Origin: Croceibacter atlanticus HTCC2559
GTDB lineage: Bacteria; Bacteroidota; Bacteroidia; Flavobacteriales; Flavobacteriaceae
Direction of reading: 5' to 3'
DNA length: 64,000 bases
NCBI RefSeq assembly: GCF_000196315.1
Contig: NC_014230.1
Location: 2,814,501-2,878,500 of the forward strand
Below the pieces are notes generated by a model. It saw only the letters and a list, made by a program, of their open reading frames with translations. It made no database searches and was not told the DNA's origin. Each line of letters starts with the position of its first letter. The stretch's first letter is position 1. The position numbers were made by a program, and so were the translations under genes. Shown piece after piece: positions 2,248-16,150 of the stretch.

Positions 2248-3639
2248 CTATACAGTTTTTTCGATTAAATCCTTTATATTATTTAATACAACTCTATGTT
2301 TACCGCTACTCTCAACATTTATACTATTGACATAATTAATATTAAATTCCATGTTATCACCAACTCTATCTCTCCAATTTTTTTTGAACAGTTTTTCTTC
2401 TTCGTTGTTATAAATACTCTTATCGATAATAATGTTAAAATTCAAACAGTTTATTTCATTTTGAATAATTTGATATGAAATAATGCCTTTAACATCTTTT
2501 ATAGCGTTTGCTATATTTACAATATTTATTTTACCATTTTCTGGTGAATAAACATAGTCTGCTACTCTCCCATTAATTGACTTTACGATAGGATTGTTAT
2601 TTCCGCAGCTGCAGATTAAATTTTGGTTTTTCAAGGTAATAGAATCACCTATATCATAACGTATTAGTGGCGTACCTTCTGTAGTAAAAGAAGTTACTAC
2701 TAACCTTCCTGTGGTTGAAGGGTTATTACATTCGTCTAATACTTCGAATACACCGCTTTGTAATTCTAAATGTAAGTTACCATTTTTACATTCAAAAATG
2801 AATGGTGCTCCTTCGGAAGATGCATATTGATTATAAACAGCAGTATGGAAGAATTTTTCAATTAACTCTCTCATTTGTTTAGTCAAGTTTTCTGCAGTAG
2901 GAAAAACTGCTTTAACTGTATTATCAGGAAATAAGTAATTATTATCTAAACCATAACGTGCTATTTCTGCTATGGTTGATGGAAACCCAACAAGATATTT
3001 GGGTTTAAATTTTATTAAATTTTCTACATAATATTGTAAAAAATTATTTTTTAAATGGAATGTTGAATAATATTTCGTTTTATTAAAATAATCATATTTC
3101 CAAAACTTTTTTTCATTTACATCCTTTATAGTTAGAATTTTTTTACCTGAAAACCAAGCAGTCTTTTTTCCTAATTTATAACCAAATCTAGATCTAAAAT
3201 CATCCAAAAGTGCAAATCGTTCTTGTAGGTTTACTTCTTTATAATGCACTTCCAAAGATTTTCCAGTTGTACCACCTGTTTTTGAACTAACTAGTTTTTT
3301 CCTTGACTTAATTGTGATATCATTAATATTAGTTCGAAATAGCTCTTTATCAATTATAGGCAAGCGTTGTATATTATCTAAATCTTGAGGATTTTCTATA
3401 TCACTATAAAGTTTTCTATAAAATTCTGAGTTTGCTATAGCTTGTTCAATAAAATTTTTATAGCGAGATTTTTGAGATCTTAATAAATCTTCACGTGATA
3501 AGCTCCTATTCAATTTATATAAGTCTCTAAAGGCTTTATATTTCCCTCCATAACGTTTTTTGTAAGCTAAAATATTATAACCACTGACAAATAAATTCTG
3601 AATGAAGTGTGGTGAACAATCATATATTTTATCTAACAT
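2248..3639 (-). CDS. PaaK/CapK-like adenylate-forming ligase family protein
   Basis: A 463-residue member of the phenylacetate-CoA ligase / coenzyme F390 synthetase-like family often found in capsule and O-antigen clusters (CapK-like). It has the Ser/Thr/Gly-rich ATP loop SKTGGTTGKS (about residues 120-130), the adenylate motif YASSEGAP, and TPLIRYDIGD, where the aspartate usually binds ATP ribose. A Cys-x-Cys-Gly (CSCG) near residue 345 may be part of a metal site. No signal peptide is visible, so it should be cytoplasmic. It overlaps the upstream glycosyltransferase gene by 7 bases. Family members activate a carboxylate as acyl-AMP, and some act in polysaccharide decoration. The substrate here is unknown; amino-acid or acyl modification of the glycan is possible. 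Confidence 0.78.
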   Translation of the reverse strand: MLDKIYDCSPHFIQNLFVSGYNILAYKKRYGGKYKAFRDLYKLNRSLSREDLLRSQKSRYKNFIEQAIANSEFYRKLYSDIENPQDLDNIQRLPIIDKELFRTNINDITIKSRKKLVSSKTGGTTGKSLEVHYKEVNLQERFALLDDFRSRFGYKLGKKTAWFSGKKILTIKDVNEKKFWKYDYFNKTKYYSTFHLKNNFLQYYVENLIKFKPKYLVGFPSTIAEIARYGLDNNYLFPDNTVKAVFPTAENLTKQMRELIEKFFHTAVYNQYASSEGAPFIFECKNGNLHLELQSGVFEVLDECNNPSTTGRLVVTSFTTEGTPLIRYDIGDSITLKNQNLICSCGNNNPIVKSINGRVADYVYSPENGKINIVNIANAIKDVKGIISYQIIQNEINCLNFNIIIDKSIYNNEEEKLFKKNWRDRVGDNMEFNINYVNSINVESSGKHRVVLNNIKDLIEKTV

Positions 3640-4763
3640 AATATGTCTTTTAATTGTGGGTATATTCTCTCTAAATTAAAATCTTTCGATCTATCATACG
3701 CCAATTTAGCATAGTAATCTCTCTCTGATTTATTATCATAAAAATATTCGATTGCTTTAGCTAATGCAATTGAATCATTAATATTAATTAATATTCCATA
3801 TTTCGCTAAATAAAATTCTCCCTTCTTAATTACAATTGTTTCATTCTCGTTTAAAATTTCTAAAGGACCAGATTTACAATTTGTTGATATCACAGGTAAG
3901 CCTACAGACATAGCTTCGAGTAAAACATTAGGAAAGCCTTCTGAATTTGATGTTAAAATAAAACAATCTGATTTAAGTAAATAATCATCTACATTCTTAA
4001 CCTTTCCAACAAAATTTATTTTAGAATCAAGATTTGATGTTTTAGATTTAAATTTTAGTTTTTCCATATCAACCCCATTACCAACAAAATAAAGTTTACA
4101 ATTAAATTTTATATTCGCTAAAGCATTAATTAATAAAGATTGATTTTTTATAGCATATAATGACCCTACATTTATTAATGTATAATCACTTGGTGCCTCC
4201 GTACTATGTGAGGTTTTGAATGTTTTTTTAATAACTGGATTGTAAATTACATTCATCGGTAACTTTACTCCAAAATTTTCATTAAGATCTTTATTTATTT
4301 CATAAGAATTAGAAAATAACACATCAGCTTTATTATAAAGCTTTGGTATTAAAAATTTATAGAGTTTTAATCTATAAGATTTTGAACTATATGCGATAGA
4401 AGGATAACAGCGTTCGCTAATAATAACTTTTACATTTTTATTAAATAACTTAATAAGACCATTTAATAAATTAGGCCTTGTTAATAAGGATAATGATATT
4501 TCTATATTATTTTGTTGTAAAAAACGATTATATAAAAAAACTAATTTTGGAAATAAAAATATCTTACTAATTAAATTCAAGTTAGTATTAGAATTCAATA
4601 CAACAACATTAACTTCCTTTGGAATTGTAAAGTGAATTATTTCATTAAATAAAACTAAATTAACCTGATAATCATTTATCAGGTTAGGTAATAATAAACT
4701 AACAAACTTCTCTGCTCCACCACTACCAAAGGTTATTAAAAGAATTGATACGTTTTTTTTAAT
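3633..4763 (-). CDS. Family 4 glycosyltransferase with a non-canonical start
   Basis: A GT-B glycosyltransferase of about 376 residues. An ORF call from the first canonical codon (TTG at 4598) gives only 321 residues and begins in the middle of the N-terminal domain. The frame continues upstream and encodes VSILLITFGSGGAEKFV, the opening strand and glycine-rich acceptor loop of GT4 enzymes. The gene at 7103-8200 has the matching GGGVEKM. Between the upstream stop (TAA at 4789-4787) and 4598 there is no ATG, GTG or TTG. Candidate starts are ATT AAA AAA at 4763 or ATA at 4778. The C-terminal domain has VGSLYAIKNQ, FVGNGVDMEK and SEGFPNVLLEAMSVGLP, so the donor site is complete. The donor sugar is unknown. 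It may be a working gene with a rare start codon or one whose start has been lost. Confidence 0.8.
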   Translation of the reverse strand: MKKNVSILLITFGSGGAEKFVSLLLPNLINDYQVNLVLFNEIIHFTIPKEVNVVVLNSNTNLNLISKIFLFPKLVFLYNRFLQQNNIEISLSLLTRPNLLNGLIKLFNKNVKVIISERCYPSIAYSSKSYRLKLYKFLIPKLYNKADVLFSNSYEINKDLNENFGVKLPMNVIYNPVIKKTFKTSHSTEAPSDYTLINVGSLYAIKNQSLLINALANIKFNCKLYFVGNGVDMEKLKFKSKTSNLDSKINFVGKVKNVDDYLLKSDCFILTSNSEGFPNVLLEAMSVGLPVISTNCKSGPLEILNENETIVIKKGEFYLAKYGILININDSIALAKAIEYFYDNKSERDYYAKLAYDRSKDFNLERIYPQLKDILC

Positions 4764-4774
4764 AGCTTTAAATT

Positions 4775-5287
4775 TTATTTTTTAATAAATCTATTTTCAT
4801 TTTGCTCAAGTAAGTGTTTTTTCTTAGAATTATAATCTAGTTGTTTTGACTTTAGATTGTATGGTAAAACTTTAATTTCAAATTCTTTGAGATTACCGAT
4901 AACTTTAGCTGGATTCCCAGCGACTATGGAATTTTCTTTAACGCTTTTTGTTACAACAGAACCAGAGGCTATTATTACATTTGATTCAATAGTAACGCCA
5001 GGCATAATTAAGCAATTATTACCAACATAAATATTATTTTTAAGAGTTACTTTTCCAAAAAAATCTAGATCCGGGTATTTCTTTCTTAAGGGCCAAGCGC
5101 CACCGTGTGTAAAGATTTTTGTCCCATTAGTAATTTGAACATGATTTCCTATTTCAATAAGGTATGGTTCTGAACCAAATGATACATTTTGAATATTACA
5201 ATTTGCACCTATTTTAACACCTAAAGATTTTGCATAATTCTCATGGCTTAAAATCTTTTTTTTTAAAAAGTTTATTATTTTAATCAT
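4775..5287 (-). CDS. Hexapeptide-repeat (LbH) acyltransferase
   Basis: A 170-residue left-handed beta-helix acyltransferase of the maltose/galactoside O-acetyltransferase type. Hexapeptide turns run from about residue 25 to 140 (VKIGANC, VGNNCLIMPGVTI, VIIASGSVVTKSV). The ending VAGNPAKVIG is the usual acetyl-CoA-site signature. The HGG at about residue 61 sits where the catalytic histidine is expected. No membrane segment is visible, so it should act in the cytoplasm on a nucleotide-sugar or lipid-linked sugar, most simply by O-acetylation. Its start codon overlaps the asnB stop as ATGA, so the two are probably co-translated. The exact target hydroxyl or amine cannot be deduced. Confidence 0.82.
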   Translation of the reverse strand: MIKIINFLKKKILSHENYAKSLGVKIGANCNIQNVSFGSEPYLIEIGNHVQITNGTKIFTHGGAWPLRKKYPDLDFFGKVTLKNNIYVGNNCLIMPGVTIESNVIIASGSVVTKSVKENSIVAGNPAKVIGNLKEFEIKVLPYNLKSKQLDYNSKKKHLLEQNENRFIKK

Positions 5288-7101
5288 AAATCTTCTTGTT
5301 TATAGTAACGTTTGAACCAAAGAGCTAAAATATATAATTTCCATATATTACTTGAATGATCAATTTTATTTTGATAAAATTGATTTAATTGATGTTTAAA
5401 AAGTTTTACATTTAAATTTGGAACCCTTAAAAGAAATTCATCATTTAGTTCTTTGAGAACATTTTCCTTGAGATCACCTTGAAGCCAATTAAAAAGGGGA
5501 ATACCAAAACCTTTTTTAGGTAAATCAAATAAATGTTTTGGTAAGTATTCGCTTAGTATGTCTTTTAATATTTTCTTTTTATTCCCTTTATAATATCTAT
5601 AACCAACAGGCAAGGACCTTGCAAATTCAATAACTCTATAATCTAAAAAAGGGCTTCTCACTTCCATAGAGTAAGCCATGCTGGCCCTGTCAACTTTTAC
5701 ATTACTGTCATTTTCAAGCCAAAGTTTTATATTTAAATCGGCCATTTTTTGATAAGGGTTATTGGATTTTAATTTATAGTTTTCATAATGACTAAACCAT
5801 TTAGTTTTTAAATCTTTTTTTTGTAAAGTTTTAAAACTTATAAAAATGTTTTCCGTAAAACCATCAGTACTAGATTTAAAAAGTGATTTTAATCTAGCTT
5901 TATTATATCTAAATATATAATCTAAAGGAAGTCGAGCCATCGCAGCCCTACACCATTTGGGTAATTTATTTACTTGTATTTTATTTGATAGGTAATCAAA
6001 ATTTCTATACCCCATGAAGCTTTCATCTCCACCATCTCCAGAAAGTGCAACTGTTACATCTTCTTTAGTGTTTTTACACAATAAAAGTGACGGCAATGCA
6101 GAACTATCTGCAAAAGGCTCATCATACACTTCAATTAATTTAGGTATTAAATCCAACAAGTCATTAGTAACCAAATGTTTGACTTTATGTTTTGTTTTTA
6201 AAGCCTTTGCAAATGCAGTAGAAGTACTACTTTCGTCAAATCTCTTTTCATTAAATCCAATTGTATAAGAACTAACTTTTCTCTCTGAAATACTTGCTGC
6301 AATACTAGTGACTAATGCTGAATCAATACCACCAGATAAAAAAGTTCCTAAAGGTACATCTGATTGCATTCTAATTCTAGTTGCATCAACAAGCAATTCA
6401 TGCAATTTATTTTTTGCGTCATTATAGGATATTTTTAAAGTCTCAGTTTTTTTTATATCCCAATATTTATCTATAAGTATTGCCTTTTTTGTTAAATCTA
6501 TAATCATTTTACTCCCAGGTTCTAATTTAAAAATATTTTCAAATATTGAAAAAGGAGATGGAACGTATCCACAATCTAGGTAAACCGAAATAGCAATTTC
6601 AGAAAGTTTATTATTAGAATCTAACAGAGGTTGAATTTGACTGCATATTTCAAATTTATTATCCAAATATTTATAATAAAATGGTTTTACACCTAACCTA
6701 TCTCTGGCGCAAAAAATAGTATCTTTTATACTATCATATATAACGAAGGCAAACATACCATTTAGTTTATCTAAAACTCTCTCACCCCATTCATAGTAAC
6801 CAATTAATAATACTTCAGTATCACTTTCAGTGTAAAAAGTATAACCAATATTTGCTAGTTCTTTTTTTAAATCATTAAAATTATAAATTTCTCCATTGTA
6901 TGAAATTGATAAATTTTTATAACTAAATGGTTGATTCGATCTAGAATCTAAATCTAATATTGAAAGTCTTAAATGAGCAAGTTTAACTTTATTGAAAGTT
7001 TTCATCTCATAATTATCTGGCCCTCTAAATTCAATTGACTTTAATTTGGCTTGAATTTCAGAATTTTTGAAATTCATATTTGTAGCGTATATACCGCACA
7101 T
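5284..7101 (-). CDS. asnB: Asparagine synthase-like glutamine amidotransferase
   Basis: A 605-residue class II glutamine amidotransferase plus synthetase protein. The N-terminus is MCGIYAT, with Cys2 as the glutaminase nucleophile, followed by RGPD and SYNGEIYN, which line the glutamine site. The synthetase half has the ATP-pyrophosphatase P-loop LSGGIDSA (about residue 256), SGDGGDE, and MEVRSPFLDYR. Length and motifs match AsnB. Its position inside a polysaccharide cluster is like that of WbpS-type proteins, which are thought to amidate hexuronic acids. The cluster makes UDP-ManNAcA and UDP-GalNAcA, so a uronamide is a reasonable product, by inference. It overlaps the downstream acyltransferase by 4 bases. 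Ordinary asparagine synthesis remains the alternative. Confidence 0.88.
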   Translation of the reverse strand: MCGIYATNMNFKNSEIQAKLKSIEFRGPDNYEMKTFNKVKLAHLRLSILDLDSRSNQPFSYKNLSISYNGEIYNFNDLKKELANIGYTFYTESDTEVLLIGYYEWGERVLDKLNGMFAFVIYDSIKDTIFCARDRLGVKPFYYKYLDNKFEICSQIQPLLDSNNKLSEIAISVYLDCGYVPSPFSIFENIFKLEPGSKMIIDLTKKAILIDKYWDIKKTETLKISYNDAKNKLHELLVDATRIRMQSDVPLGTFLSGGIDSALVTSIAASISERKVSSYTIGFNEKRFDESSTSTAFAKALKTKHKVKHLVTNDLLDLIPKLIEVYDEPFADSSALPSLLLCKNTKEDVTVALSGDGGDESFMGYRNFDYLSNKIQVNKLPKWCRAAMARLPLDYIFRYNKARLKSLFKSSTDGFTENIFISFKTLQKKDLKTKWFSHYENYKLKSNNPYQKMADLNIKLWLENDSNVKVDRASMAYSMEVRSPFLDYRVIEFARSLPVGYRYYKGNKKKILKDILSEYLPKHLFDLPKKGFGIPLFNWLQGDLKENVLKELNDEFLLRVPNLNVKLFKHQLNQFYQNKIDHSSNIWKLYILALWFKRYYKQEDL

Positions 7102-7102
7102 A

Positions 7103-8200
7103 TTATTGAAATAAAAAATTAAGATATTGTTGGCTTATAATATTGATGCTAAAATCTTTAGATCTTTTTTTAATGTCTGGATGTTTTTTTCTACTCAATG
7201 ATTTCTCTATAGCTTTAGCTAAAATTTGAGGTTTATTTAGTGGTACCAATTCACCAAATTTTCCATTACACAGGATTTCTCTTGGTCCTCCTAAGCAATT
7301 AGTTACAACAACTGGCACACCAGCAGCCATTGCTTCTATTATAACGTTCCCAAAACCTTCTTGAGTAGACGTTGATATAAATAAATTAGATACTTTTAAA
7401 TATGATTCTGGGTTATCAACAAATCCAAGCAAACTAACGTTCTTATTTAAATTCAATAAATTAATTTGATTAACTAATGATTCTTTTTCTTCACCGTCAC
7501 CTAATAATATTAAATGGGTATTATTTAAGTTTTTTAAATGTACTAAAGAGCTAATTAAGTATTGAAAGTTTTTATATTTATCTAATCTCCCTATAGCAAT
7601 TAATAAATTATTAGTGGTTTTGATTCCTAGTTGTTTTCTTATCGATTCATCTGGAATAACTTTATTTATTTTATTAATATTAACCATATTATAAATCACT
7701 TTAATTTTTTTTGATTTGACATTAAAATTATTCTCTAAATCTGTTTTTACATCAGTAGATATAGCTACAATTTTTTTAGGATATTTATAAAATAACTTTA
7801 TTAATATTTTCATTAAAAAAGAATATCGTGATTGTATTATATTCAATGATGTAATCGCTCTTTCACTTATAATAATATTAATTTTATTATAGGATAAAAT
7901 ACATGATACTATAGCTATAATATTTACATAATTCATAGCGGTAAGTAAAGCATCAGGCTTATTATTATTTAAATATTTTGTTAGAGGAAAAATTGTATTC
8001 AAAATCCTCTTTTTTCTTAAGTCAACTATATTAACTTGACTTGACAATAATTTTTTGTAAGGCCCAGAATTGTTTATTACTATATAATCAACAGTATAGT
8101 TTTTGCCGACAAAATTATTGGCTAGATAAACCATCATTTTCTCAACACCACCTCCTAGAAATGAAGGTACAAAAATTGCAATGTGTTTACTGTTTTTCAT
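7103..8200 (-). CDS. Family 4 glycosyltransferase
   Basis: A 365-residue GT4 enzyme. It opens with IAIFVPSFLGGGVEKMM, the N-terminal strand and glycine loop for acceptor binding. A central VAISTDVKTDL is followed by AIGRLDKYKNF and LGDGEEKESL, and the donor-site loop TQEGFGNVIIEAMAAGVPVV contains the E-x7-E pattern. It is full length and probably associates with the inner membrane through basic and hydrophobic patches, with no clear transmembrane helix. It overlaps the wzy gene by 14 bases and ends 1 base before asnB, so it is tightly packed in the operon. It adds one sugar of the repeat unit; donor unknown. Family assignment is firm and specificity is not. Confidence 0.86.
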   Translation of the reverse strand: MKNSKHIAIFVPSFLGGGVEKMMVYLANNFVGKNYTVDYIVINNSGPYKKLLSSQVNIVDLRKKRILNTIFPLTKYLNNNKPDALLTAMNYVNIIAIVSCILSYNKINIIISERAITSLNIIQSRYSFLMKILIKLFYKYPKKIVAISTDVKTDLENNFNVKSKKIKVIYNMVNINKINKVIPDESIRKQLGIKTTNNLLIAIGRLDKYKNFQYLISSLVHLKNLNNTHLILLGDGEEKESLVNQINLLNLNKNVSLLGFVDNPESYLKVSNLFISTSTQEGFGNVIIEAMAAGVPVVVTNCLGGPREILCNGKFGELVPLNKPQILAKAIEKSLSRKKHPDIKKRSKDFSINIISQQYLNFLFQ

Positions 8201-9359
8201 TATTTATAACGTTTTGTATTGATATAAAACTAAACATAAAAATCATCAAAAATCTATTATCATAAATTCTTTGGGCATTAGCAATTAACATAAAACAAAA
8301 TAAGCTTATAATTAATATTACCTTTAATTGGATATTATAAATCTTTAAAGTAGACCAGAATATTGTTAAGATTGCATAAAGGAAAAAGCCAAAACCTAAA
8401 ATACCCGTTCCAGCTAAAATTTCTACAAAATTATTATGTGTATAAGTTCCAAGGTAAGCTCTTGTATTCTCTAAACCAATACCTATTATTGGATTTTCAT
8501 AAAATATTGACAACCCCTTACTAATTAAGTAGCTTCTATATCCAGTCATGTATTCAGAATCAATATAACCTATTTCAGAACTACCTCCAAAAAGCACAGA
8601 TAATCTAGAAGTTATTCTTAAAACTGAATAGTTATTTAAATACTCAGTATCTTTTAAAAAGTAAATACATACTATTATAAATAGTACTGTAAAAAAACTA
8701 TTTAAGAATATTTTTTTTAAACTTATGGAAGATTTTAAAACGTAAAATGAAAGGATTAAAATCGTAGAAACTACAATGGATTTAATTGAAGCAGTAAAAA
8801 AAATAGAAACATAAAAATATAACGTAAATACTATGGAAATTAAATGAGATTTAATTAATTGATCTCTTAATAAATTAACAACTAAACCAATGAATAAGAT
8901 TACTGCTGAAGAATTTTTACCAAAGGAGTCTGACTCAATAAAATTAAATGTAAAACCATCAAATGATATAAAATAAAGTATAGATGCAAATACTACACAT
9001 GTATAAAAGATACTATTTAAAAAATCAAAAAGTTCACTTTTAGTTTTTAATCGTAAGGCAACAAAATAACATGCTAATATTATAGAAATTATATTTAATG
9101 CATTTTTAACTGGATATAAAGGATCTATTGAAATTATACCACTAAATATAACTATACTTAGAAAAAATAATAATGCTATTAGGAAATTTTTCTCAAGCCT
9201 AAATACTTTTAACGATTTTGGAATTCTATATAGTAAAAAAGGGCCTAATAGTATAACTAACCAATTTAAAGAAGCATTTAAGTATCCAATAGGAATTAAC
9301 AAAAAATATAAAGTATATTTAATTACATTCCATTTTATTGTTAAGTTTATAAAGCCCAT
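8187..9359 (-). CDS. wzy: O-antigen polymerase/ligase family membrane protein (probable Wzy)
   Basis: A 390-residue polytopic membrane protein with roughly ten to twelve hydrophobic helices. It carries the hallmark of the Wzy_C/WaaL family near the C-terminal third: YTHNNFVEILAGTGILGFGFFL, following a large periplasmic loop with GIGLENTRAYLG. Such proteins sit in the inner membrane and act on undecaprenyl-PP-linked oligosaccharide in the periplasm, as polymerase (Wzy) or ligase (WaaL). Location between wzx-linked sugar genes and glycosyltransferases favours the polymerase. It shares one base with the upstream KpsS-like gene and overlaps the downstream GT4 by 14 bases. Poor sequence conservation in this family means Wzy versus WaaL cannot be settled by eye. 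Confidence 0.78.
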   Translation of the reverse strand: MGFINLTIKWNVIKYTLYFLLIPIGYLNASLNWLVILLGPFLLYRIPKSLKVFRLEKNFLIALLFFLSIVIFSGIISIDPLYPVKNALNIISIILACYFVALRLKTKSELFDFLNSIFYTCVVFASILYFISFDGFTFNFIESDSFGKNSSAVILFIGLVVNLLRDQLIKSHLISIVFTLYFYVSIFFTASIKSIVVSTILILSFYVLKSSISLKKIFLNSFFTVLFIIVCIYFLKDTEYLNNYSVLRITSRLSVLFGGSSEIGYIDSEYMTGYRSYLISKGLSIFYENPIIGIGLENTRAYLGTYTHNNFVEILAGTGILGFGFFLYAILTIFWSTLKIYNIQLKVILIISLFCFMLIANAQRIYDNRFLMIFMFSFISIQNVINNEKQ

Positions 9360-10738
9360 TATTGGTTTGTTTCTAATAAGAGCTTAATTAATTTTAGATG
9401 CCCAATAATTCTATATTCCGCTTTATAAAAGTTATTTTCTTCAAATATTTCTTTATTGATTCCACTTATAGTTTTTTTATTTATTTCATTTAATTTATTA
9501 AAGTTATCTTCCTGTACGTATTCCATAATCTTATTAAAAGCTAAAATTAAATCATTATTTGATTGTATAGAATATACATTTTTAATGTTACGATAAGAAG
9601 CCACACCAAATGTTAAAACTGGTTTGTTTCTAATAAGAGCCTGTACACCTACAGTACCTGTAATGGTTGCTATTCCTTGTGAATTATCAATTAACTTAAA
9701 GGTGTCAAAACTTAAATTAATTAATTCAACATTGTGCAAAGAATTAATGTCTTTATATAGTTTTGAATTTCTATACCTAAAATCTAAATGGTTTGTATAT
9801 ATAGAAGGATGCTCTTTTACAAGCAACCTCCATCCCTTCGGTAAAGTGTTTGAAATCATTCTAATTATTAACCATTGATTAGAAAAGGCCAAACCTTCTG
9901 GCATTGATGTTCTTTCCGGTTGAAAATGTAGAAAGAAAATAATATATTTCTTACTTAAACTTGGGGCAATAGATAGCTTACTATAAAGTCTATATAAATT
10001 GTATTTAGTGGGTAAATAAATCAGAAATTTTGGGTTTTTTATAACCTTATGTAATTCTTTACTCCAAGACCAAAATTTTCCTTTAGACTGATCTAAACGT
10101 TTTTTCTCATATTCTGGTAAAGCATTATTATAATCTGCTTGATTTAATTTTATATAGGTTTTTGAAAGGTAAGTATCAAACTCATTAACAGGAAATGTTT
10201 TTGGAAATACAGGTTTTTGAATATCAAGACCCTCAACAATCCAATAGCGCCATGGCAGTGGAGAAGTTTGAATCATTCTAACGGGGATTCCTAGGTATTC
10301 TGCCACCTTTGACAAAACCCAGTTGGGTAAATTGTGAGGAGTTGCCTGAAATAAGATATAATCTATTTTATTTTCTTGAAAGTAAAATAAACTATTGTAC
10401 ACAATTTTTTCAATTGTTGAGGTGATTGAAAATAAACTGTTCCAAGCTATAATTTTGTTAACGCGCTCTGCAATTAAAAGTGTACGATGATCATTTAGGA
10501 CATCGTTTAGTATATCGGTATATTTTGATAAATATTCTTTTTTTAATTTTTGATTTTGAAAAATAAGTTTAAAATCTTCATAATATAAAATTTTAGAATA
10601 TATATTTGATTTTAATACTTTGCTTTCAGAACCCTTATTCGTTAATAATGTTAAATTATTTTTCTCTGAAAACCTATCAAAAATATCACTTAGTTGATTT
10701 GAGGGTAACATTCCCGGATCTAACAAAACATGCTTCAT
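9359..10738 (-). CDS. KpsS-like capsule polysaccharide biosynthesis protein, candidate pseudaminyltransferase
   Basis: A 459-residue soluble protein. The C-terminal half has two patches typical of the Capsule_synth (KpsS/KpsC-like) superfamily of GT-B enzymes: LLVKEHPSIY (about residue 310) and ITGTVGVQALIRNKPVLTFG (about residue 365). The KEHP and TGT/E-A-x2-KP-type motifs line the nucleotide-sugar site in relatives that use CMP-Kdo or CMP-nonulosonate donors. It lies directly after pseI, with 7 bases between them. From memory, KpsS1-type proteins are assigned as pseudaminic acid transferases in some Acinetobacter capsule loci. That makes it the best candidate here for transferring the nonulosonate, since the other three glycosyltransferases are GT4. 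The N-terminal 150 residues are not recognised. Confidence 0.62.
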   Translation of the reverse strand: MKHVLLDPGMLPSNQLSDIFDRFSEKNNLTLLTNKGSESKVLKSNIYSKILYYEDFKLIFQNQKLKKEYLSKYTDILNDVLNDHRTLLIAERVNKIIAWNSLFSITSTIEKIVYNSLFYFQENKIDYILFQATPHNLPNWVLSKVAEYLGIPVRMIQTSPLPWRYWIVEGLDIQKPVFPKTFPVNEFDTYLSKTYIKLNQADYNNALPEYEKKRLDQSKGKFWSWSKELHKVIKNPKFLIYLPTKYNLYRLYSKLSIAPSLSKKYIIFFLHFQPERTSMPEGLAFSNQWLIIRMISNTLPKGWRLLVKEHPSIYTNHLDFRYRNSKLYKDINSLHNVELINLSFDTFKLIDNSQGIATITGTVGVQALIRNKPVLTFGVASYRNIKNVYSIQSNNDLILAFNKIMEYVQEDNFNKLNEINKKTISGINKEIFEENNFYKAEYRIIGHLKLIKLLLETNQ

Positions 10739-10745
10739 ACAATTA

Positions 10746-11762
10746 CTATTCTAAAATAGACAAAGACAATGGGTCTCCTTTATCTAAATCCTTATTGGTT
10801 TTTTTTCCAATAATTTCGTTTAAGTATTTAGGGTGTAGGCCAAAACCTGGTCTAACAGATCTTACATTTTTTTCAGTTATTTTTTCTCCTGCAGAAATAG
10901 GCTCTGTAACATACAAAGATCTTGAAAAAACCTTTCCAGATTGTTGTTTAGCCGTAAGCTCATAGGTTTCTTTACCTATAGCAATTTCCGCATTACGAAC
11001 TTCAGAAACCATTTGTGTAAATTCTTCTTCATCTAAAGAAAAGCTAGCATCTGGACCGCCTATACTTTTATCTAAAATAAAGTGTTTTTCTATGACTTTT
11101 GCACCCAATGCAGTTGCTACAACCGGTAAGGTTGTCCCTAAGGTATGGTCTGAAAGCCCCACTTTAACATTAAAATCTTTAGCAAAGCGTTGCATCATTA
11201 CCAAATTAGCCTCATCAATTGGTGCTGGGTATGATGATGTGCACTTTAATAACGTGATATCATTATTACCAGCTTCTCGACATGTATCCACTGCTAATTG
11301 TATATCTTCTTTCGTTGCTATACCTGTGGACATTATCATTGGTTTACCTTTAGATGCAGCATAAGCAATTAAATTTACATCTGTAATCTCGAAAGACGCA
11401 ATTTTGTATATAGGGCATTCTAAGTCTTCTAAAAAATCTATAGCAGTAACGTCAAACGGTGAAGAAAAACATACTAATCCTTCTTCTTTTGCAGTTTCAA
11501 ATAGTTCTTTGTGCCATTCCCAAGGCAAAGAAGCTTCTTTATATAAATCATATAGTTTCCTATCTTCCCATATAGTTCCCTTTATAATAAAGTCATCCTT
11601 CTCAGAATTTAAAGTAATTGTATCTGGAGTATAGGTTTGTAACTTAATAGCATCTGCACCAGTTCTTTTAGCTGCTCTAATCGTGTTCTTAGCTATTTCT
11701 ATATTTCCACCATGGTTTGCGGAGAGTTCTGCTATAATAAATACTGTATTTAAATTTTTCAA
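10746..11762 (-). CDS. pseI: Pseudaminic acid synthase
   Basis: A 338-residue member of the NeuB/PseI/LegI family, which condenses a 2,4-diamino-trideoxy-hexose with phosphoenolpyruvate to form a nonulosonic acid. The TIM barrel is seen as IAELSANHGG, GADAIKLQTYTPDT, FSSPFDVTAIDFLE, YKIASFE, STGIA and GLSDHT. EKHFILDKS and GPDASFS follow, and an SAF antifreeze-like domain covers about residues 280-338 (RSLYVTEPISAGEKIT, RPGFGLHP). The wording LSANHGG, SFEITD and GPDASFSLDEEEF matches PseI better than NeuB or LegI. Mn-binding histidines are present (SDHT, EKHF). It lies 4 bases after the MaoC-like gene. With PseB, PseC, PseH and PseF in the same operon, the product should be a pseudaminic acid. 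Confidence 0.92.
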   Translation of the reverse strand: MKNLNTVFIIAELSANHGGNIEIAKNTIRAAKRTGADAIKLQTYTPDTITLNSEKDDFIIKGTIWEDRKLYDLYKEASLPWEWHKELFETAKEEGLVCFSSPFDVTAIDFLEDLECPIYKIASFEITDVNLIAYAASKGKPMIMSTGIATKEDIQLAVDTCREAGNNDITLLKCTSSYPAPIDEANLVMMQRFAKDFNVKVGLSDHTLGTTLPVVATALGAKVIEKHFILDKSIGGPDASFSLDEEEFTQMVSEVRNAEIAIGKETYELTAKQQSGKVFSRSLYVTEPISAGEKITEKNVRSVRPGFGLHPKYLNEIIGKKTNKDLDKGDPLSLSILE

Positions 11763-11766
11763 TATA

Positions 11767-12189
11767 TTAAATTATAAAATTTCTATTTTGAATTAAAGCT
11801 TCTCCCGACACCACTAAAGTCGCATCTGAATCAAAAATTTCTGTTAAAACAAGTGCTCTATGCTTATTAAGCCTAATATCCTTAACTAAAAAGTAAGCTT
11901 TATACTGCTGATCTGCATACATTGGTTTTAAAAATTTAAGATCTTGCTTAAGATATATAGTTCCCTCTCCTGGAAAATTAGTTGCAAAAACTTTAGAGAA
12001 AATACTCGTTCCTAAATATCCGTGCACAATTCTTCTACCAAAAATTGATTTAGATGCATAAACTTCGTCTAGGTGTATAGGATTTTTATCTCCTGAAATT
12101 TCAGCGAAGTTATCTACATCTTTTTGAGAATAAGAGAATAACTCATGATAAGTATCTCCTTCATTTAATTTACTTATAAACTTGTTCAT
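11767..12189 (-). CDS. MaoC-like (hot-dog fold) hydratase in the pseudaminate module
   Basis: A 140-residue single hot-dog-fold protein with the MaoC / (R)-specific enoyl-CoA hydratase signature SGDKNPIHLDEVYA (about residues 31-44). The catalytic Asp and His of that motif are both present, and GRRIVHGYLG follows. Relatives such as PhaJ hydrate trans-2-enoyl-CoA to (R)-3-hydroxyacyl-CoA. The gene overlaps pseH by 20 bases and sits between pseH and pseI, so it is embedded in the sugar module and is not part of fatty-acid genes. Pseudaminic acids carrying (R)-3-hydroxybutyryl groups are known from other bacteria. I infer this enzyme may supply such an acyl-CoA. A direct role on a sugar intermediate cannot be excluded. 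Confidence 0.8.
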   Translation of the reverse strand: MNKFISKLNEGDTYHELFSYSQKDVDNFAEISGDKNPIHLDEVYASKSIFGRRIVHGYLGTSIFSKVFATNFPGEGTIYLKQDLKFLKPMYADQQYKAYFLVKDIRLNKHRALVLTEIFDSDATLVVSGEALIQNRNFII

Positions 12190-12712
12190 GTATTATATTT
12201 TTTAGTAACAACCATTCTCGTTTTAAAAGTGCAAGACCTACAACATTATGCCATTGATTGTTTTTAAAGCAGTGTTCGCGATAAAATGCTTCTCTTCGAA
12301 ATCCATATTTTTCATGCATTCTTATAACTTTGTCATTGAACTCAAAGACCTCACATCTCAATTTATTTAAGTTTAATTCTTCAAATACATATTTTAATAC
12401 ATTAAACTCAACTTTCCCACCAATTCCAGCTCCACGTATAGATGACTCACCAAGATAGAACGCCCAATAACAACTGCTAAGGGTTTTATTAATATCTGTT
12501 AAACTAGCTAGTCCAAGATAGTTTCCATTAAACTCAATCAACCAATATTTACAAGATTCACTTTGTTTTACGTTTTTAAACCACTCTACCTGTTGTTTTT
12601 TAGTAATTTTTTTATCAGTATACATATAATAAGAAACCTCATCGGAGTTTCTCCAGTTTCTTACCATTTCCAAATGCTCTTCACTTAAGGAAACTAGTTT
12701 TATATCGTTCAT
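12170..12712 (-). CDS. pseH: UDP-4-amino-4,6-dideoxy-N-acetyl-beta-L-altrosamine N-acetyltransferase (PseH)
   Basis: A 180-residue GNAT-fold protein with the PseH pattern. It begins LVSLSEEHLEMVRNWRNSDEV, then has a YWAFYLGE strand, the acyl-CoA pyrophosphate loop RGAGIGGKVEF (about residues 95-105), LNKLRCEVFEFN and YGFRREAFYREH. PseH acylates the 4-amino group of the altrosamine intermediate from acetyl-CoA, the third step of CMP-pseudaminate synthesis. Its ATG overlaps the stop of the upstream GNAT gene as ATGA, and its end overlaps the MaoC-like gene by 20 bases, so all three should be co-translated. The acyl donor may differ from acetyl-CoA, given the MaoC neighbour; that part is inference. 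Confidence 0.88.
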   Translation of the reverse strand: MNDIKLVSLSEEHLEMVRNWRNSDEVSYYMYTDKKITKKQQVEWFKNVKQSESCKYWLIEFNGNYLGLASLTDINKTLSSCYWAFYLGESSIRGAGIGGKVEFNVLKYVFEELNLNKLRCEVFEFNDKVIRMHEKYGFRREAFYREHCFKNNQWHNVVGLALLKREWLLLKNIIHEQVYK

Positions 12713-13275
12713 AAGTATTTAATTTTTGAATGAATAATAACATCTTTATATTCTCCATTAAACAAGCAATGATCTTTTAAAACTGCATCTTTTAAATAAC
12801 CAAACTCCTCTAATACTTCATATAATAATGGCCTTAGGTCGAAAGCATAAGTGTAAATCTTATGTAACATTAACTCTTCAAAAGCCATTTTTTCAAGTAA
12901 ATTCAAATAAATTTTCCAATTTTTTTTAAACTCATTTTTTTCTAATTCAGTTTTCATAATAAATGATATTTCTGCATTTTTATCAAACCAATTAATATGC
13001 ACTAAACCACCATATCCAATACACTCATTATTTTTTAAATAGGAAAATAAAAGTTGATTTGGTTTTTCTTGCTCAAAGAGCTTAGCCACTACATTTCTAA
13101 AATAGTTTTCTTGATCTTTTTCTGTAAGTGGTTTTACCTGTCGTAAATGAAAGAGCTGTTCATTACGCCATTGCATGATTTTAAAACGATCTTTATACCG
13201 TATGGGAACAATGGAATACTCCAACTCCGATAAGCTTTTAATTTTCAAAGCTTTATATTTGTCAGGAAAAACCAT
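12709..13275 (-). CDS. Second GNAT-family N-acyltransferase of the pseudaminate module
   Basis: A 188-residue GNAT protein of RimJ/RimL-like layout. It has an N-terminal WRNEQLFHLRQVKPLT, the central strand CIGYGGLVHINW, an acidic INW...AEISFIM core, and the end GYLKDAVLKDHCLFNGEYKDVI, which resembles the YGF...EH ending of PseH. The usual acyl-CoA loop (Q/R-x-x-G-x-G/A) is poorly kept: where it is expected I see LEKNEFKKNWK. This GNAT may be degenerate or may bind its acyl-CoA differently. It occupies the place where pseG or a PseF-PseG fusion is often found, but it shows no nucleotide hydrolase motifs. It overlaps pseF by 14 bases and pseH by 4. The function is not known. Confidence 0.72.
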   Translation of the reverse strand: MVFPDKYKALKIKSLSELEYSIVPIRYKDRFKIMQWRNEQLFHLRQVKPLTEKDQENYFRNVVAKLFEQEKPNQLLFSYLKNNECIGYGGLVHINWFDKNAEISFIMKTELEKNEFKKNWKIYLNLLEKMAFEELMLHKIYTYAFDLRPLLYEVLEEFGYLKDAVLKDHCLFNGEYKDVIIHSKIKYL

Positions 13276-13954
13276 GTACTAGTTTATATTTTAATTCTGC
13301 TAATTTCCAATCTTTAGTATTATCAATATCTTGAACTTCTAATTCAGATAAAACTAATACACCAGTGTTATTGGTAAATAAGCCTTTATTTTTAATAATT
13401 TTTTTAACCACAAACCAATAAAATTGACCCGCATCGTGATAACTTTCTTTTAAGTCTTGAGAACGGGTAGTTTCATACTCAGGTTGAAAAAACATTACTT
13501 TACCATCTTTATCCTTAAGTAATGCACGCTGAATAGGAAAACTATACTTGACTACTGGAAAAGCTACGTCAAAGCTATCTAATTTATCATGAGCTTCTTG
13601 TAATTTTTCAAAAGTAATTAATGGCGCACACGGATATAAACAGCAAGCTTTTTCAAAATTCATATCCATTTTTTCATAATTATCAAGTACCTCTTCAATC
13701 ACTTCATAAGTCGTAGCAAAATCATTTGCTTTTTCCTTACTGCGCATAAATGGGATTCTGGCACCATATTGTTTAGCGATTTCTGCGATTTCACTATCCT
13801 CAGTAGACACCATAACCTCATCAAACAAATTACTTTTAATTGCAGCTTCAATAGAATAAGCTATAATTGGTTTCCCTAAAAAGTCCTTTATGTTTTTTCT
13901 TGGTATACGTTTACTTCCACCCCTAGCTGGTATTATACAAAGTGATTTAACCAT
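13262..13954 (-). CDS. pseF: Pseudaminic acid cytidylyltransferase
   Basis: A 230-residue CMP-nonulosonate synthetase that activates pseudaminic acid with CTP. The N-terminal CTP-binding motif IIPARGGSKRIPRKN (about residues 7-21) is intact, followed by LGKPIIAYSIEAA, VSTEDSEIA, YPCAPL and DAGQFYWF, all typical of PseF rather than NeuA (which has a different QLQPTSPL-type middle motif). The length is that of PseF alone, with no PseG-like C-terminal extension. It overlaps pseC by 8 bases and the second GNAT gene by 14 bases. The product, CMP-Pse, should be used by a transferase such as the KpsS-like protein at 9359-10738. Confidence 0.92.
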   Translation of the reverse strand: MVKSLCIIPARGGSKRIPRKNIKDFLGKPIIAYSIEAAIKSNLFDEVMVSTEDSEIAEIAKQYGARIPFMRSKEKANDFATTYEVIEEVLDNYEKMDMNFEKACCLYPCAPLITFEKLQEAHDKLDSFDVAFPVVKYSFPIQRALLKDKDGKVMFFQPEYETTRSQDLKESYHDAGQFYWFVVKKIIKNKGLFTNNTGVLVLSELEVQDIDNTKDWKLAELKYKLVHGFS

Positions 13955-15140
13955 TGTAAAAATCGTTAATTTTAGATATCACAAAACTTTGCTCCTCATT
14001 TGTTAGTGTTGGAAACATAGGTAAGCTTATGCAATGCTTATAATAATTTTCCGCATTAGGCATGTCTCCTTCATCCCAACCTAATTGCCTATAGTATGGC
14101 ATAAGGTGTGTAGGGATGTAATGAATTTGTGCATAAATATTATGCTCTCTCAAGAAATTATAAAGCTCTAACCTTTTATTGACTTCTATAATATATAAAT
14201 GATACGCATGGCCTTCAACAACACCAGATTGTCCTATAATAAAATCTTTATTCCTGAAGTTTTCAAAATATGTTGCCGCTATTTCTTTACGTCTCACTAA
14301 ACCTTTTTCTGCTCTATTAAGTTGGCTCAAACCTAGTGCTGATTGAAAGTCTGTAATCCTATAATTATATCCTAAGTCTTGCATTTCCATGTACCACCCA
14401 GGATAGGTAGTGTCACTTTCACCTGCAGACGCAAACATTTGGGAATTGGTATAGGCATTATCATCTTTATAAATCCCATGTGTACGAAGCGCCATAAGTT
14501 TCTTATAAAGTGCTTCATCATTAGTAGTAATCATTCCTCCTTCACCACTTGCAATATGTTTGACTGGGTGAAATGAAAAAATTGCTAAATCAGCAAATTT
14601 ACCGTTACCGCAATGTTGTTTGTCACCTTTAGAATCTATAAAATAACCACCAGGAGAGTGACAACTGTCTTCAATTATCCAAAGATCATACTCATCTGCT
14701 AATTTTTTAAAGGCTTCTAAGTTTACTGAGCGACCTGCGAAGTCCACGGGAATTATACCTGAATACGTTCCTTTAGGAGACGCTTCAAGTAATTTCTTGA
14801 CTGCATTAATGTCTAACAAATATGTATCTGGATTTATATCTGCAAATACAACCTCGCCACCACAATAGCGCACACAATTTGCAGATGCTGCAAAAGTAAT
14901 AGGTGTTGTAATGACTTTAGTTCCTTTTTTTACACCTAAAGCTAATGCATTTAAGTGTAATGCTGCAGTACCATTTGATACCGCAATAGCATATTTGGAA
15001 TTAACATAATTTGCAAAGGCTTTCTCAAACTCAAGTATTCTAGGACCTTGAGTTAGATAGTCTGCTTTTAAAGCTTCAACTACAGCATCTATATCTTCTT
15101 GAGTAATGTTTTGCTTACCGTATGGAATAGAGAAACTCAT
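13947..15140 (-). CDS. pseC: UDP-4-amino-4,6-dideoxy-N-acetyl-beta-L-altrosamine transaminase
   Basis: A 397-residue PLP-dependent aminotransferase of the DegT/DnrJ/EryC1/StrS family. It converts the 4-keto product of PseB to the 4-amino sugar, with glutamate as usual amino donor. The N-terminal IPYGKQNITQEDIDAVVEAL is typical of PseC. Other motifs are SNGTAALHL, TTPITFAASANC, the PLP phosphate/ring contact EDSCHSPGG, and the internal aldimine lysine in FHPVKHIASGEGG (about residue 190). LGYNYRITDFQSALG contacts substrate. Length matches the family. It shares one base with pseB and overlaps pseF by 8, forming a tight pseB-pseC-pseF block. Confidence 0.93.
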   Translation of the reverse strand: MSFSIPYGKQNITQEDIDAVVEALKADYLTQGPRILEFEKAFANYVNSKYAIAVSNGTAALHLNALALGVKKGTKVITTPITFAASANCVRYCGGEVVFADINPDTYLLDINAVKKLLEASPKGTYSGIIPVDFAGRSVNLEAFKKLADEYDLWIIEDSCHSPGGYFIDSKGDKQHCGNGKFADLAIFSFHPVKHIASGEGGMITTNDEALYKKLMALRTHGIYKDDNAYTNSQMFASAGESDTTYPGWYMEMQDLGYNYRITDFQSALGLSQLNRAEKGLVRRKEIAATYFENFRNKDFIIGQSGVVEGHAYHLYIIEVNKRLELYNFLREHNIYAQIHYIPTHLMPYYRQLGWDEGDMPNAENYYKHCISLPMFPTLTNEEQSFVISKINDFYNG

Positions 15141-16150
15141 TATAAAGAAAAATTAGGATCAACGTGTTCTTTAATCAGATTTCTTAGTCCTTCCACTGTC
15201 TCCCAATCCTCATTTTCACCACTATTATATTTAAAACCGTCTGCTACTCTCTTCGCGCTAAATTTAGTTATAAATTCTTCTAACTTCCATCTATGTGTAG
15301 CTGGAATAATGGTGTAATATTTACCTAAATCGTATGTATAGTAACTATCTGATGATGTTATCATTTCTTCATGAATTTTTTCACCAGGCCTTATTCCAAC
15401 AACGGGTTTTTCACATTCTGGACCTATAGCCTCTGCTACATCTGTGATACGATAACTAGGGATTTTTGGGACAAAAATTTCACCTCCCCAAGCATTTTCT
15501 AATGCGTGCATTACCATATCTACACCACCCTGTAATGATATATTAAAGCGTGTCATTGTTGTATCTGTAATTGGAAGCACACCTTCTTTTTTCTTTTTTA
15601 AGAAAAATGGAATTACAGAACCATTAGAACCCATCACATTACCATACCTGACAACACTAAATTTAATGGGATTCCAACCCGTAATGTTATTTGCGGCTAC
15701 AAATAATTTATCTGAAGCTAATTTAGTTGCTCCATAAAGGTTTACAGGTGCTGCAGCTTTATCTGTAGATAATGCTACTACCCTAGAAACCTCGGTTTCT
15801 AAACAAGCATTAATTATATTCTCTGCACCCATAATATTTGTCTTAACACATTCCATTGGGTTATATTCAGCAATTGGCACGTGTTTCATTGCTGCAGCAT
15901 GAATCACATAGTCAATCCCCTTTAATGCTCTTTTAACTCTATCATAGTCTCTTACATCACCAATAAAAAAACGAATTTGAGGAAACTCATTTGCAGGAAA
16001 CTCTTGAGCCATCTCAAATTGCTTTTGTTCATCTCTAGAAAAAATGACTAATCGTTTAATTGAAGGGTATAACTCTAATATATGTGATGTTAAAGCTCTA
16101 CCCAATGATCCTGTACCTCCAGTTATAAGTAATGATTTGTCTCTAAGCAT
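15140..16150 (-). CDS. pseB: UDP-N-acetylglucosamine 4,6-dehydratase (inverting)
   Basis: A 336-residue short-chain dehydrogenase/reductase of the PseB/FlaA1 type. This inverting 4,6-dehydratase performs the first committed step from UDP-GlcNAc to pseudaminic acid. The NAD(P) loop is TGGTGSLG (about residues 10-17), followed by VIFSRDEQKQFEM, GDVRDYDRV, HAAAMKHVP, STDKAAAPVNLYGATK with the catalytic Tyr-x3-Lys, and VRYGNVMGS. The short length and lack of membrane helices separate it from the retaining PglF-type dehydratases. It begins 6 bases after wzx. This protein and PseC define the altro series, so pseudaminic acid is favoured over legionaminic acid. Confidence 0.93.
   Translation of the reverse strand: MLRDKSLLITGGTGSLGRALTSHILELYPSIKRLVIFSRDEQKQFEMAQEFPANEFPQIRFFIGDVRDYDRVKRALKGIDYVIHAAAMKHVPIAEYNPMECVKTNIMGAENIINACLETEVSRVVALSTDKAAAPVNLYGATKLASDKLFVAANNITGWNPIKFSVVRYGNVMGSNGSVIPFFLKKKKEGVLPITDTTMTRFNISLQGGVDMVMHALENAWGGEIFVPKIPSYRITDVAEAIGPECEKPVVGIRPGEKIHEEMITSSDSYYTYDLGKYYTIIPATHRWKLEEFITKFSAKRVADGFKYNSGENEDWETVEGLRNLIKEHVDPNFSL

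Follow-up and report, generated by a model that had tools for sequence, protein, structure and literature searches.

The canonical pathway for pseudaminic acid (Pse), as encoded by psaABCDEF of Acinetobacter baumannii, comprises PseB, PseC, PseF, PseG, PseH and PseI, of which PseG is the hydrolase of the uridine diphosphate (UDP)-linked sugar UDP-6-deoxy-AltdiNAc and adopts a GT-B fold like that of MurG. In the excerpted description of PMC11494974, psaD of A. baumannii is termed a nucleotidase and psaE an N-acetyltransferase. The excerpts of PMC6586298 and PMC9676051 describe the variants psaABCGHF and lgaABCHIFG, in which the psaD/psaE pair gives way to two other genes; for loci with psaG/psaH in its place, the product, predicted or found, is Pse5Ac7 with acetyl (Ac) or 3-hydroxybutanoyl. 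A Pse operon was identified here in a 64,000-nucleotide stretch of Croceibacter atlanticus HTCC2559 (NC_014230.1, positions 2,814,501 to 2,878,500; this whole stretch is referred to as the window), where it shares with the canonical pathway PseB, PseC, PseF, PseH and PseI, as well as the gene order B-C-F-[x]-H-I. Position x is occupied by PseG in A. baumannii and by a 188-residue GNAT-fold protein, designated here as G188, in the window, which in addition carries a MaoC gene between PseH and PseI. The combined evidence suggests, with a rough probability of two in three, that G188 stands in for PseG and would free UDP from the acylated nucleotide sugar.

The genome containing the window is a single contig (2.95 Mb, 99.99% complete), and a search of its entirety with the PseG profile TIGR03590 returned no matches at an E value of 0.001; the same search, applied as a control, produced matches in 5 of 14 control genomes, two of them above the cut-off. 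The initial annotation had noted that PseG is missing from the operon, and had suggested that it was either encoded elsewhere or replaced by something new. Its absence is thereby extended to the whole genome and the first option ruled out, leaving replacement, likely by G188. G188 itself did not match TIGR03590 at an E value of 0.01.

The distribution of both proteins was assessed in two draws of genomes, each blind to PseG and G188, consisting of 149 relatives and 395 genomes from across the phylum. PseI was detected above its cut-off in 12 and 56 of these, respectively, corresponding to 67 distinct genomes, as the window genome was present in both draws. Profile searches showed that 13 of these 67 genomes encode G188 only and 54 encode PseG only, with none encoding both and none encoding neither. 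Of the 54 PseG genomes, 38 have a PseG score above the curated threshold (32 of 47 in the phylum draw and six of seven in the relatives' draw), and PseG was located on the same retrieved stretch as PseI in 50, the exceptions being G016, which is split over contigs, and G417, G423 and G480, in which PseG is found on a separate contig. PseG without PseI above cut-off was observed in 11 further genomes of the phylum draw and in one of the relatives' draw (G009). Among the 339 phylum genomes without PseI above cut-off, two G188-like matches were obtained, both weak (78.1 and 51.5 bits), with at most eight candidates per genome being fully scored. A direct search with the G188 profile of the PseI loci retrieved from the PseG genomes gave 34.6 bits as its best score. 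In a separate set of 13 genomes selected for encoding G188, PseI was present in all 13 and PseG above cut-off in none, although five of them match the PseG profile partially, in its C-terminal part (≤25.6 bits).

G188 was not found in the viral contigs searched, and in the plasmid collection only the C-terminal part of a G188 fusion protein from locus L053 (residue 159 onward) was matched, in four records. Of the 79 records of this collection that gave a PseI-like match, eight were chosen by hand and their Pse loci read, two being near-identical A. baumannii records; all eight encode a PseG-like open reading frame (ORF), and the best score with the G188 profile was 25.8 bits, on a PseH ORF. 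Two records filed as A. baumannii plasmids, L155 and L156, bear a psa-type locus and are 3.7 and 4.1 Mb in length; judged by this size, they may represent misfiled chromosomes.

G188 and PseG were shown to share a position in the locus as well as neighbouring and fused partners. In L155 (A. baumannii), the order is PseB-PseC-PseF-PseG-PseH-PseI, with PseG in the position held by G188 in the window. Similarly, L041 is organized as PseB-PseC-PseF-PseG-formyltransferase-PseI, and L089 exhibits the same order with G188 in place of PseG; the formyltransferases of these two loci are 57% identical, and no PseH type was found beside G188 and the formyltransferase in L089. A PseH-type domain is joined to PseG in a single protein in 28 of the 54 PseG genomes, and one genome (L044) encodes a fusion of PseG with a formyltransferase; the corresponding fusion of a PseH-type domain with G188 was observed at 9 of the 26 loci of its family. 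This family consists of 25 loci plus the window, with L095 (78 bits as G188, 60.1 bits as PseH) and L096 (52 bits, GNAT loop motif retained) being left out. The partner of G188 is a PseH type in 23 of the 26 loci, a formyltransferase in one (L089) and an ATP-grasp protein in two (fused in L093, neighbouring in L094), indicating that G188 is not tied to one kind of N4 acylation, which fits the hydrolysis step rather than the acylation step. Furthermore, the PseB-to-PseI stretch of L053, L064, L087 and L092 consists of directly adjoining genes that encode only PseB, PseC, PseF, G188, a PseH type and PseI, so that G188 is the sole protein there without an assigned step; L046 was not counted among these minimal loci, as it contains a 122-residue ORF between PseB and PseC. 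Both the PseG and the G188 state were observed within a single genus in two cases (g125 and g146).

A phylogenetic comparison of PseI was performed with a quick-method tree of 79 proteins, representing the 67 PseI genomes and 12 members of the G188-selected set, the latter providing 12 of the 25 G188 rows. The PseI proteins of G188 loci were polyphyletic, with 10 changes of state on this tree, at least six of which are forced by supported branches, and a single G188 clade was rejected (p-AU of the approximately unbiased test, 4.6e-80 on the quick tree). When the 67 PseI proteins were considered alone, the G188 label required seven changes. The PseI of the window belongs to a supported group of four, the other three of which are associated with PseG, and its highest identity (72%) is to the PseG-associated PseI of L047. 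The polyphyly of the PseI partners of G188 indicates that the swap between PseG and G188 occurred several times, so that PseG has likely been displaced more than once by a non-orthologous protein of GNAT fold. The PseI substrate is probably unchanged, since no column of the PseI alignment separates the two groups (the best differs at 76% versus 9%); 58 columns show no variation in the G188 group and deviate in no more than one member of the PseG group.

Protein structure prediction using AlphaFold (14 sequences) generated a model of G188 with a predicted local distance difference test score (pLDDT) of 91, representing a single GNAT domain and not the two-domain GT-B architecture of PseG. The initial annotation had described G188 as a GNAT protein with a weak acyl-coenzyme A (CoA) loop; the family assignment is supported by the Pfam match (Table 1), and the loop is better described as absent, since GxG is found in none of the 26 family members. 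The first Foldseek match of the model was PseH of Helicobacter pylori (4RI1; E value 2.1e-13, template modelling score 0.74/0.78), although its Z score of 20.1 against 4RI1 was tied with those against spermidine acetyltransferases (20 to 21, up to 20.9). According to the excerpted description of H. pylori PseH, uracil is sandwiched in the model between Arg30 and Phe52, CoA is contacted by Asn131, Lys133 and Gly103, and Tyr138 serves as the general acid (PMC4363471). Arg30 corresponds to Arg37 of G188, the Arg of a WRN motif, and Phe52 to Tyr58, both invariant in all 26 G188 proteins; fold, WRN-motif Arg and an aromatic residue at the uracil site are common to G188 and PseH. Conversely, the loop GxG is present in 9 of 12 PseH-type proteins, and the position of the CoA-contacting Asn131, which is Asn in all 12 of them, is occupied by Arg in 25 of the 26 G188 proteins and by Glu in the remaining one. 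Invariant residues of G188 comprise R37, Q55, Y58, H93, E102 and D146, and mean column identity was 67% (16 rows), compared with 33% in the heterogeneous set of 12 PseH-type proteins. Such a pattern fits a protein that would have kept the UDP-sugar pocket, given up acyl-CoA and come under selection for another chemistry; H93, E102 and D146 could, as a guess, be its catalytic residues.

In the proposed scheme, PseB and PseC would generate UDP-4-amino-6-deoxy-AltNAc, the N4 of which would be acylated by PseH. G188 would then accommodate the UDP-sugar in a nucleotide-sugar pocket common to its own GNAT fold and that of PseH, and release UDP, after which the freed sugar would be condensed with phosphoenolpyruvate by PseI and activated with cytidine monophosphate (CMP) by PseF. 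We infer that G188 itself would perform the hydrolysis, as we do the bond that is cut and the order of this step relative to acylation. A broader proposal, tentative and at close to even odds, is that G188 represents a new enzyme class, i.e. a GNAT-fold nucleotide-sugar hydrolase derived from a PseH-like acyltransferase, the acyl-CoA site of which would have been lost and the UDP-sugar pocket turned to UDP release, and which would have displaced GT-B-fold PseG several times in Bacteroidota.

Several observations weigh against the replacement of PseG by G188. GNAT-fold proteins are not known to act as nucleotide-sugar hydrolases, and the proposed link from locus position to activity derives from gene context. 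In 16 of the 54 PseG genomes, PseG scores 86 to 153 bits and thus falls short of the curated cut-off. Independent pairs are few, with five on supported branches (seven on the best tree), and although PseG stands opposite G188 in all five supported pairs, the sign test yields a P value of only 0.0625. In the divergent loci L093 and L094, no PseH type was found beside the ATP-grasp protein, and the border between G188 and PseH is soft, as illustrated by the intermediate scores of the L095 protein given above. At the residue level, equivalences with H. pylori PseH were obtained through a motif match to Campylobacter jejuni PseH and profile-profile alignment, not from superposed coordinates. Three of the 12 PseH-type proteins also lack the loop GxG, and a single Gly is found near the loop in two G188 proteins (L050 and L091). 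At the general-acid position, all 26 G188 proteins have a hydrophobic residue (Leu, Ile, Val or Phe), but Phe likewise occurs there in 4 of the 12 PseH-type proteins (His, Ser or Tyr in the other eight), which makes this feature weak evidence; because PseH-type proteins also deviate at loop and general acid, such losses alone do not prove that acyl transfer has been lost.

Alternative explanations were weighed against the same data. A Nudix or UshA-like housekeeping hydrolase encoded away from the locus could remove UDP, in which case G188 would partner PseH in a regulatory or non-catalytic role; this would agree with the frequent presence of a PseH-type protein in G188 loci and with the nine fusions between the two. 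It is nevertheless unlikely, as it leaves unexplained that every PseI genome lacking PseG has G188 (13/13) and that none with PseG does (0/54), and as G188 is adjacent to a formyltransferase, with no PseH type found, in L089. The suggestion of the initial annotation that G188 uses the MaoC product, acting as a second N-acyltransferase on (R)-hydroxyacyl-CoA with PseG replaced by another factor, appears decidedly improbable. The GNAT fold of G188, its proximity to MaoC in the window, the recurrence of a G188-PseH-MaoC block in L054 and the deviations among PseH-type proteins from the loop and general-acid consensus are compatible with such a role. However, the occurrence of G188 tracks the absence of PseG, MaoC is near PseI in only one of 67 genomes (besides the L054 block), and G188 possesses neither the GxG nor the CoA Asn that are present in 9 and 12, respectively, of the 12 PseH-type proteins. 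Moreover, the pathway sugar offers one free amine for PseH-type acylation, and this is already served by the full PseH of the window.

There is only a very remote chance that PseI accepts a nucleotide- or phosphate-linked sugar, in which case no hydrolase would be needed and G188 would modify the substrate. There is no direct indication in its favour, although the two groups of PseI sequences show different residue frequencies at several columns; the lack of a separating column, the 58 nearly shared invariant columns and the interleaving of the PseI proteins of both groups on the tree argue against it.

MaoC was shown to be a rare accessory, separate from the question of PseG. It is found within 20 kb of PseI in the window's own genome only, among the 67 PseI genomes; a match at an E value of 0.001 exists anywhere in the genome in 26 of them, the nearest after that of the window being 20.4 kb from PseI (G448). 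Acquisition of MaoC and loss of PseG as one cassette was consequently rejected. Of the co-occurrence that the initial annotation proposed to check (MaoC and G188 always together and always without PseG), the part on G188 and PseG was confirmed and the part on MaoC was not. Locus L054 contains a second G188-PseH-MaoC block, the PseH and MaoC of which are 64-65% and 58% identical to those of the window, respectively; no PseB, PseC, PseF or PseI match was found within its 19.7 kb, and PseI is located on another, longer contig of that genome.

The protein itself had been annotated as a MaoC-like (R)-hydratase with an intact active site, in agreement with its Pfam score (Table 1) and with the presence of the hydratase motif D-x-N-P-x-H as GDKNPIH. 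The nearest solved sequences are the (R)-specific enoyl-CoA hydratases 5CPG and 1IQ6, and, as judged by family, motif and these relatives, the window MaoC is predicted to be a sound (R)-hydratase. A GNAT precedent for transfer of a hydroxyacyl group is FdhC, which, according to the title of entry 5KTC, places 3-hydroxybutanoyl on a sugar amine; it matches the window PseH weakly (28.8 bits) and acts on a different sugar. Family and motif, the L054 block and the FdhC precedent together suggest that PseH may decorate the Pse of the window with a 3-hydroxyacyl group. MaoC probably makes (R)-3-hydroxyacyl-CoA, and it is possible, at slightly less than even odds, that PseH uses it to acylate N4 (N7 of the final sugar). 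MaoC was not matched in the 2.0-10.5 kb listed for each of the eight plasmid-collection Pse loci. One of these is from Sinorhizobium meliloti Rm41, the K antigen of which contains hydroxybutyryl-Pse, so that MaoC may not be generally needed for that group.

The psaG/psaH variants of A. baumannii resemble the present case in that two genes replace the psaD/psaE pair, and differ in being tied, in the excerpted descriptions, to a 3-hydroxybutanoyl product; PsaG and PsaH were compared by description only. No report of PseG replacement by G188 was found among the papers listed from the open-licence literature on Pse, PseG and Bacteroidetes or flavobacteria. The kind of pathway is known, and the enzyme solution represented by G188 appears to be new. 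If correct, the PseG step of Pse biosynthesis has a second, unrelated solution, and if G188 is a hydrolase, an acyl-transfer fold has been turned to UDP-sugar hydrolysis and the presence of PseG is an unsafe marker of Pse in Bacteroidota. The profile libraries used in this analysis name the 188-residue protein only as GNAT or as a sub-threshold PseH (29.5 bits with TIGR03585, against a cut-off of 93.1), so that such pathways would be called incomplete.

The genes of the operon run from position 16150 down to 10746 in the order PseB-PseC-PseF-G188-PseH-MaoC-PseI (Table 1). The five canonical genes recognized in the initial annotation were all recovered with NCBIfam profiles above their curated cut-offs, and the tight overlap it reported was confirmed, adjacent genes overlapping by 1-20 bases with the sole exception of a 4-base gap between MaoC and PseI.

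Table 1. Genes of the pseudaminic acid operon, with positions in the window
Product	Position	Strand	Evidence
PseB, UDP-GlcNAc 4,6-dehydratase (inverting)	15140..16150	-	TIGR03589, 509.5 bits (cut-off 407.75)
PseC, 4-aminotransferase	13947..15140	-	TIGR03588, 456 bits (cut-off 423.5)
PseF, CMP-pseudaminic acid synthetase	13262..13954	-	TIGR03584, 300.9 bits (cut-off 205.7)
G188, 188-residue GNAT-fold protein at the position of PseG; putative UDP-sugar hydrolase in place of PseG	12709..13275	-	PF13420, 47.1 bits; mutual exclusivity with PseG
PseH, N-acyltransferase	12170..12712	-	TIGR03585, 158.4 bits (cut-off 93.1)
MaoC-like (R)-enoyl-CoA hydratase, accessory, 140 residues	11767..12189	-	PF01575, 65.6 bits (cut-off 27); GDKNPIH motif
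PseI, pseudaminic acid synthase	10746..11762	-	TIGR03586, 526.7 bits (cut-off 340.25)

Variation in other steps of the pathway was also observed among the loci compared. In L041, L044, L089, L102, L105, L109 and L116, a formyltransferase accompanies PseG, either adjacent to it or as a fusion, or lies next to G188, with no PseH-type match in the stretch, and these loci possibly direct the synthesis of N-formyl pseudaminic acid. The fusion of G188 to a PylC-like/ATP-grasp ligase in L093 (positions 7417-8970) is 517 residues in length, and its ligase part may attach an amino acid at N4. No PseF match was obtained in L045, L049, L058, L059, L088, L091 and L097, which instead encode a KdsB-like cytidylyltransferase, an aldo-keto reductase and an enzyme resembling glutamate-1-semialdehyde aminomutase; six of these loci carry G188 and L097 carries PseG. 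The excerpt of PMC7371886 mentions a fusion of cytidylyltransferase and aldo-keto reductase in a Pse cluster of Vibrio. L095 (positions 3421-11392) represents a divergent nonulosonic-type locus, encoding NeuB-like, KdsB-like and PseB-like proteins and two PseC-like proteins in addition to the protein intermediate between G188 and PseH; PseG was not matched in the L095 genome at an E value of 1e-9.

The surroundings of the operon encode a flippase, a glycosyltransferase, nucleotide-sugar dehydrogenases and an O-antigen ligase/polymerase-like protein that scores just above its Pfam cut-off, and look like a surface polysaccharide locus. Immediately downstream of PseI, positions 9359-10738 encode a 459-residue Capsule_synth protein (PF05159), which is a candidate pseudaminyltransferase; weak relatives of this protein are also encoded directly downstream of PseI in L041, L042, L044, L045, L064 and L090.

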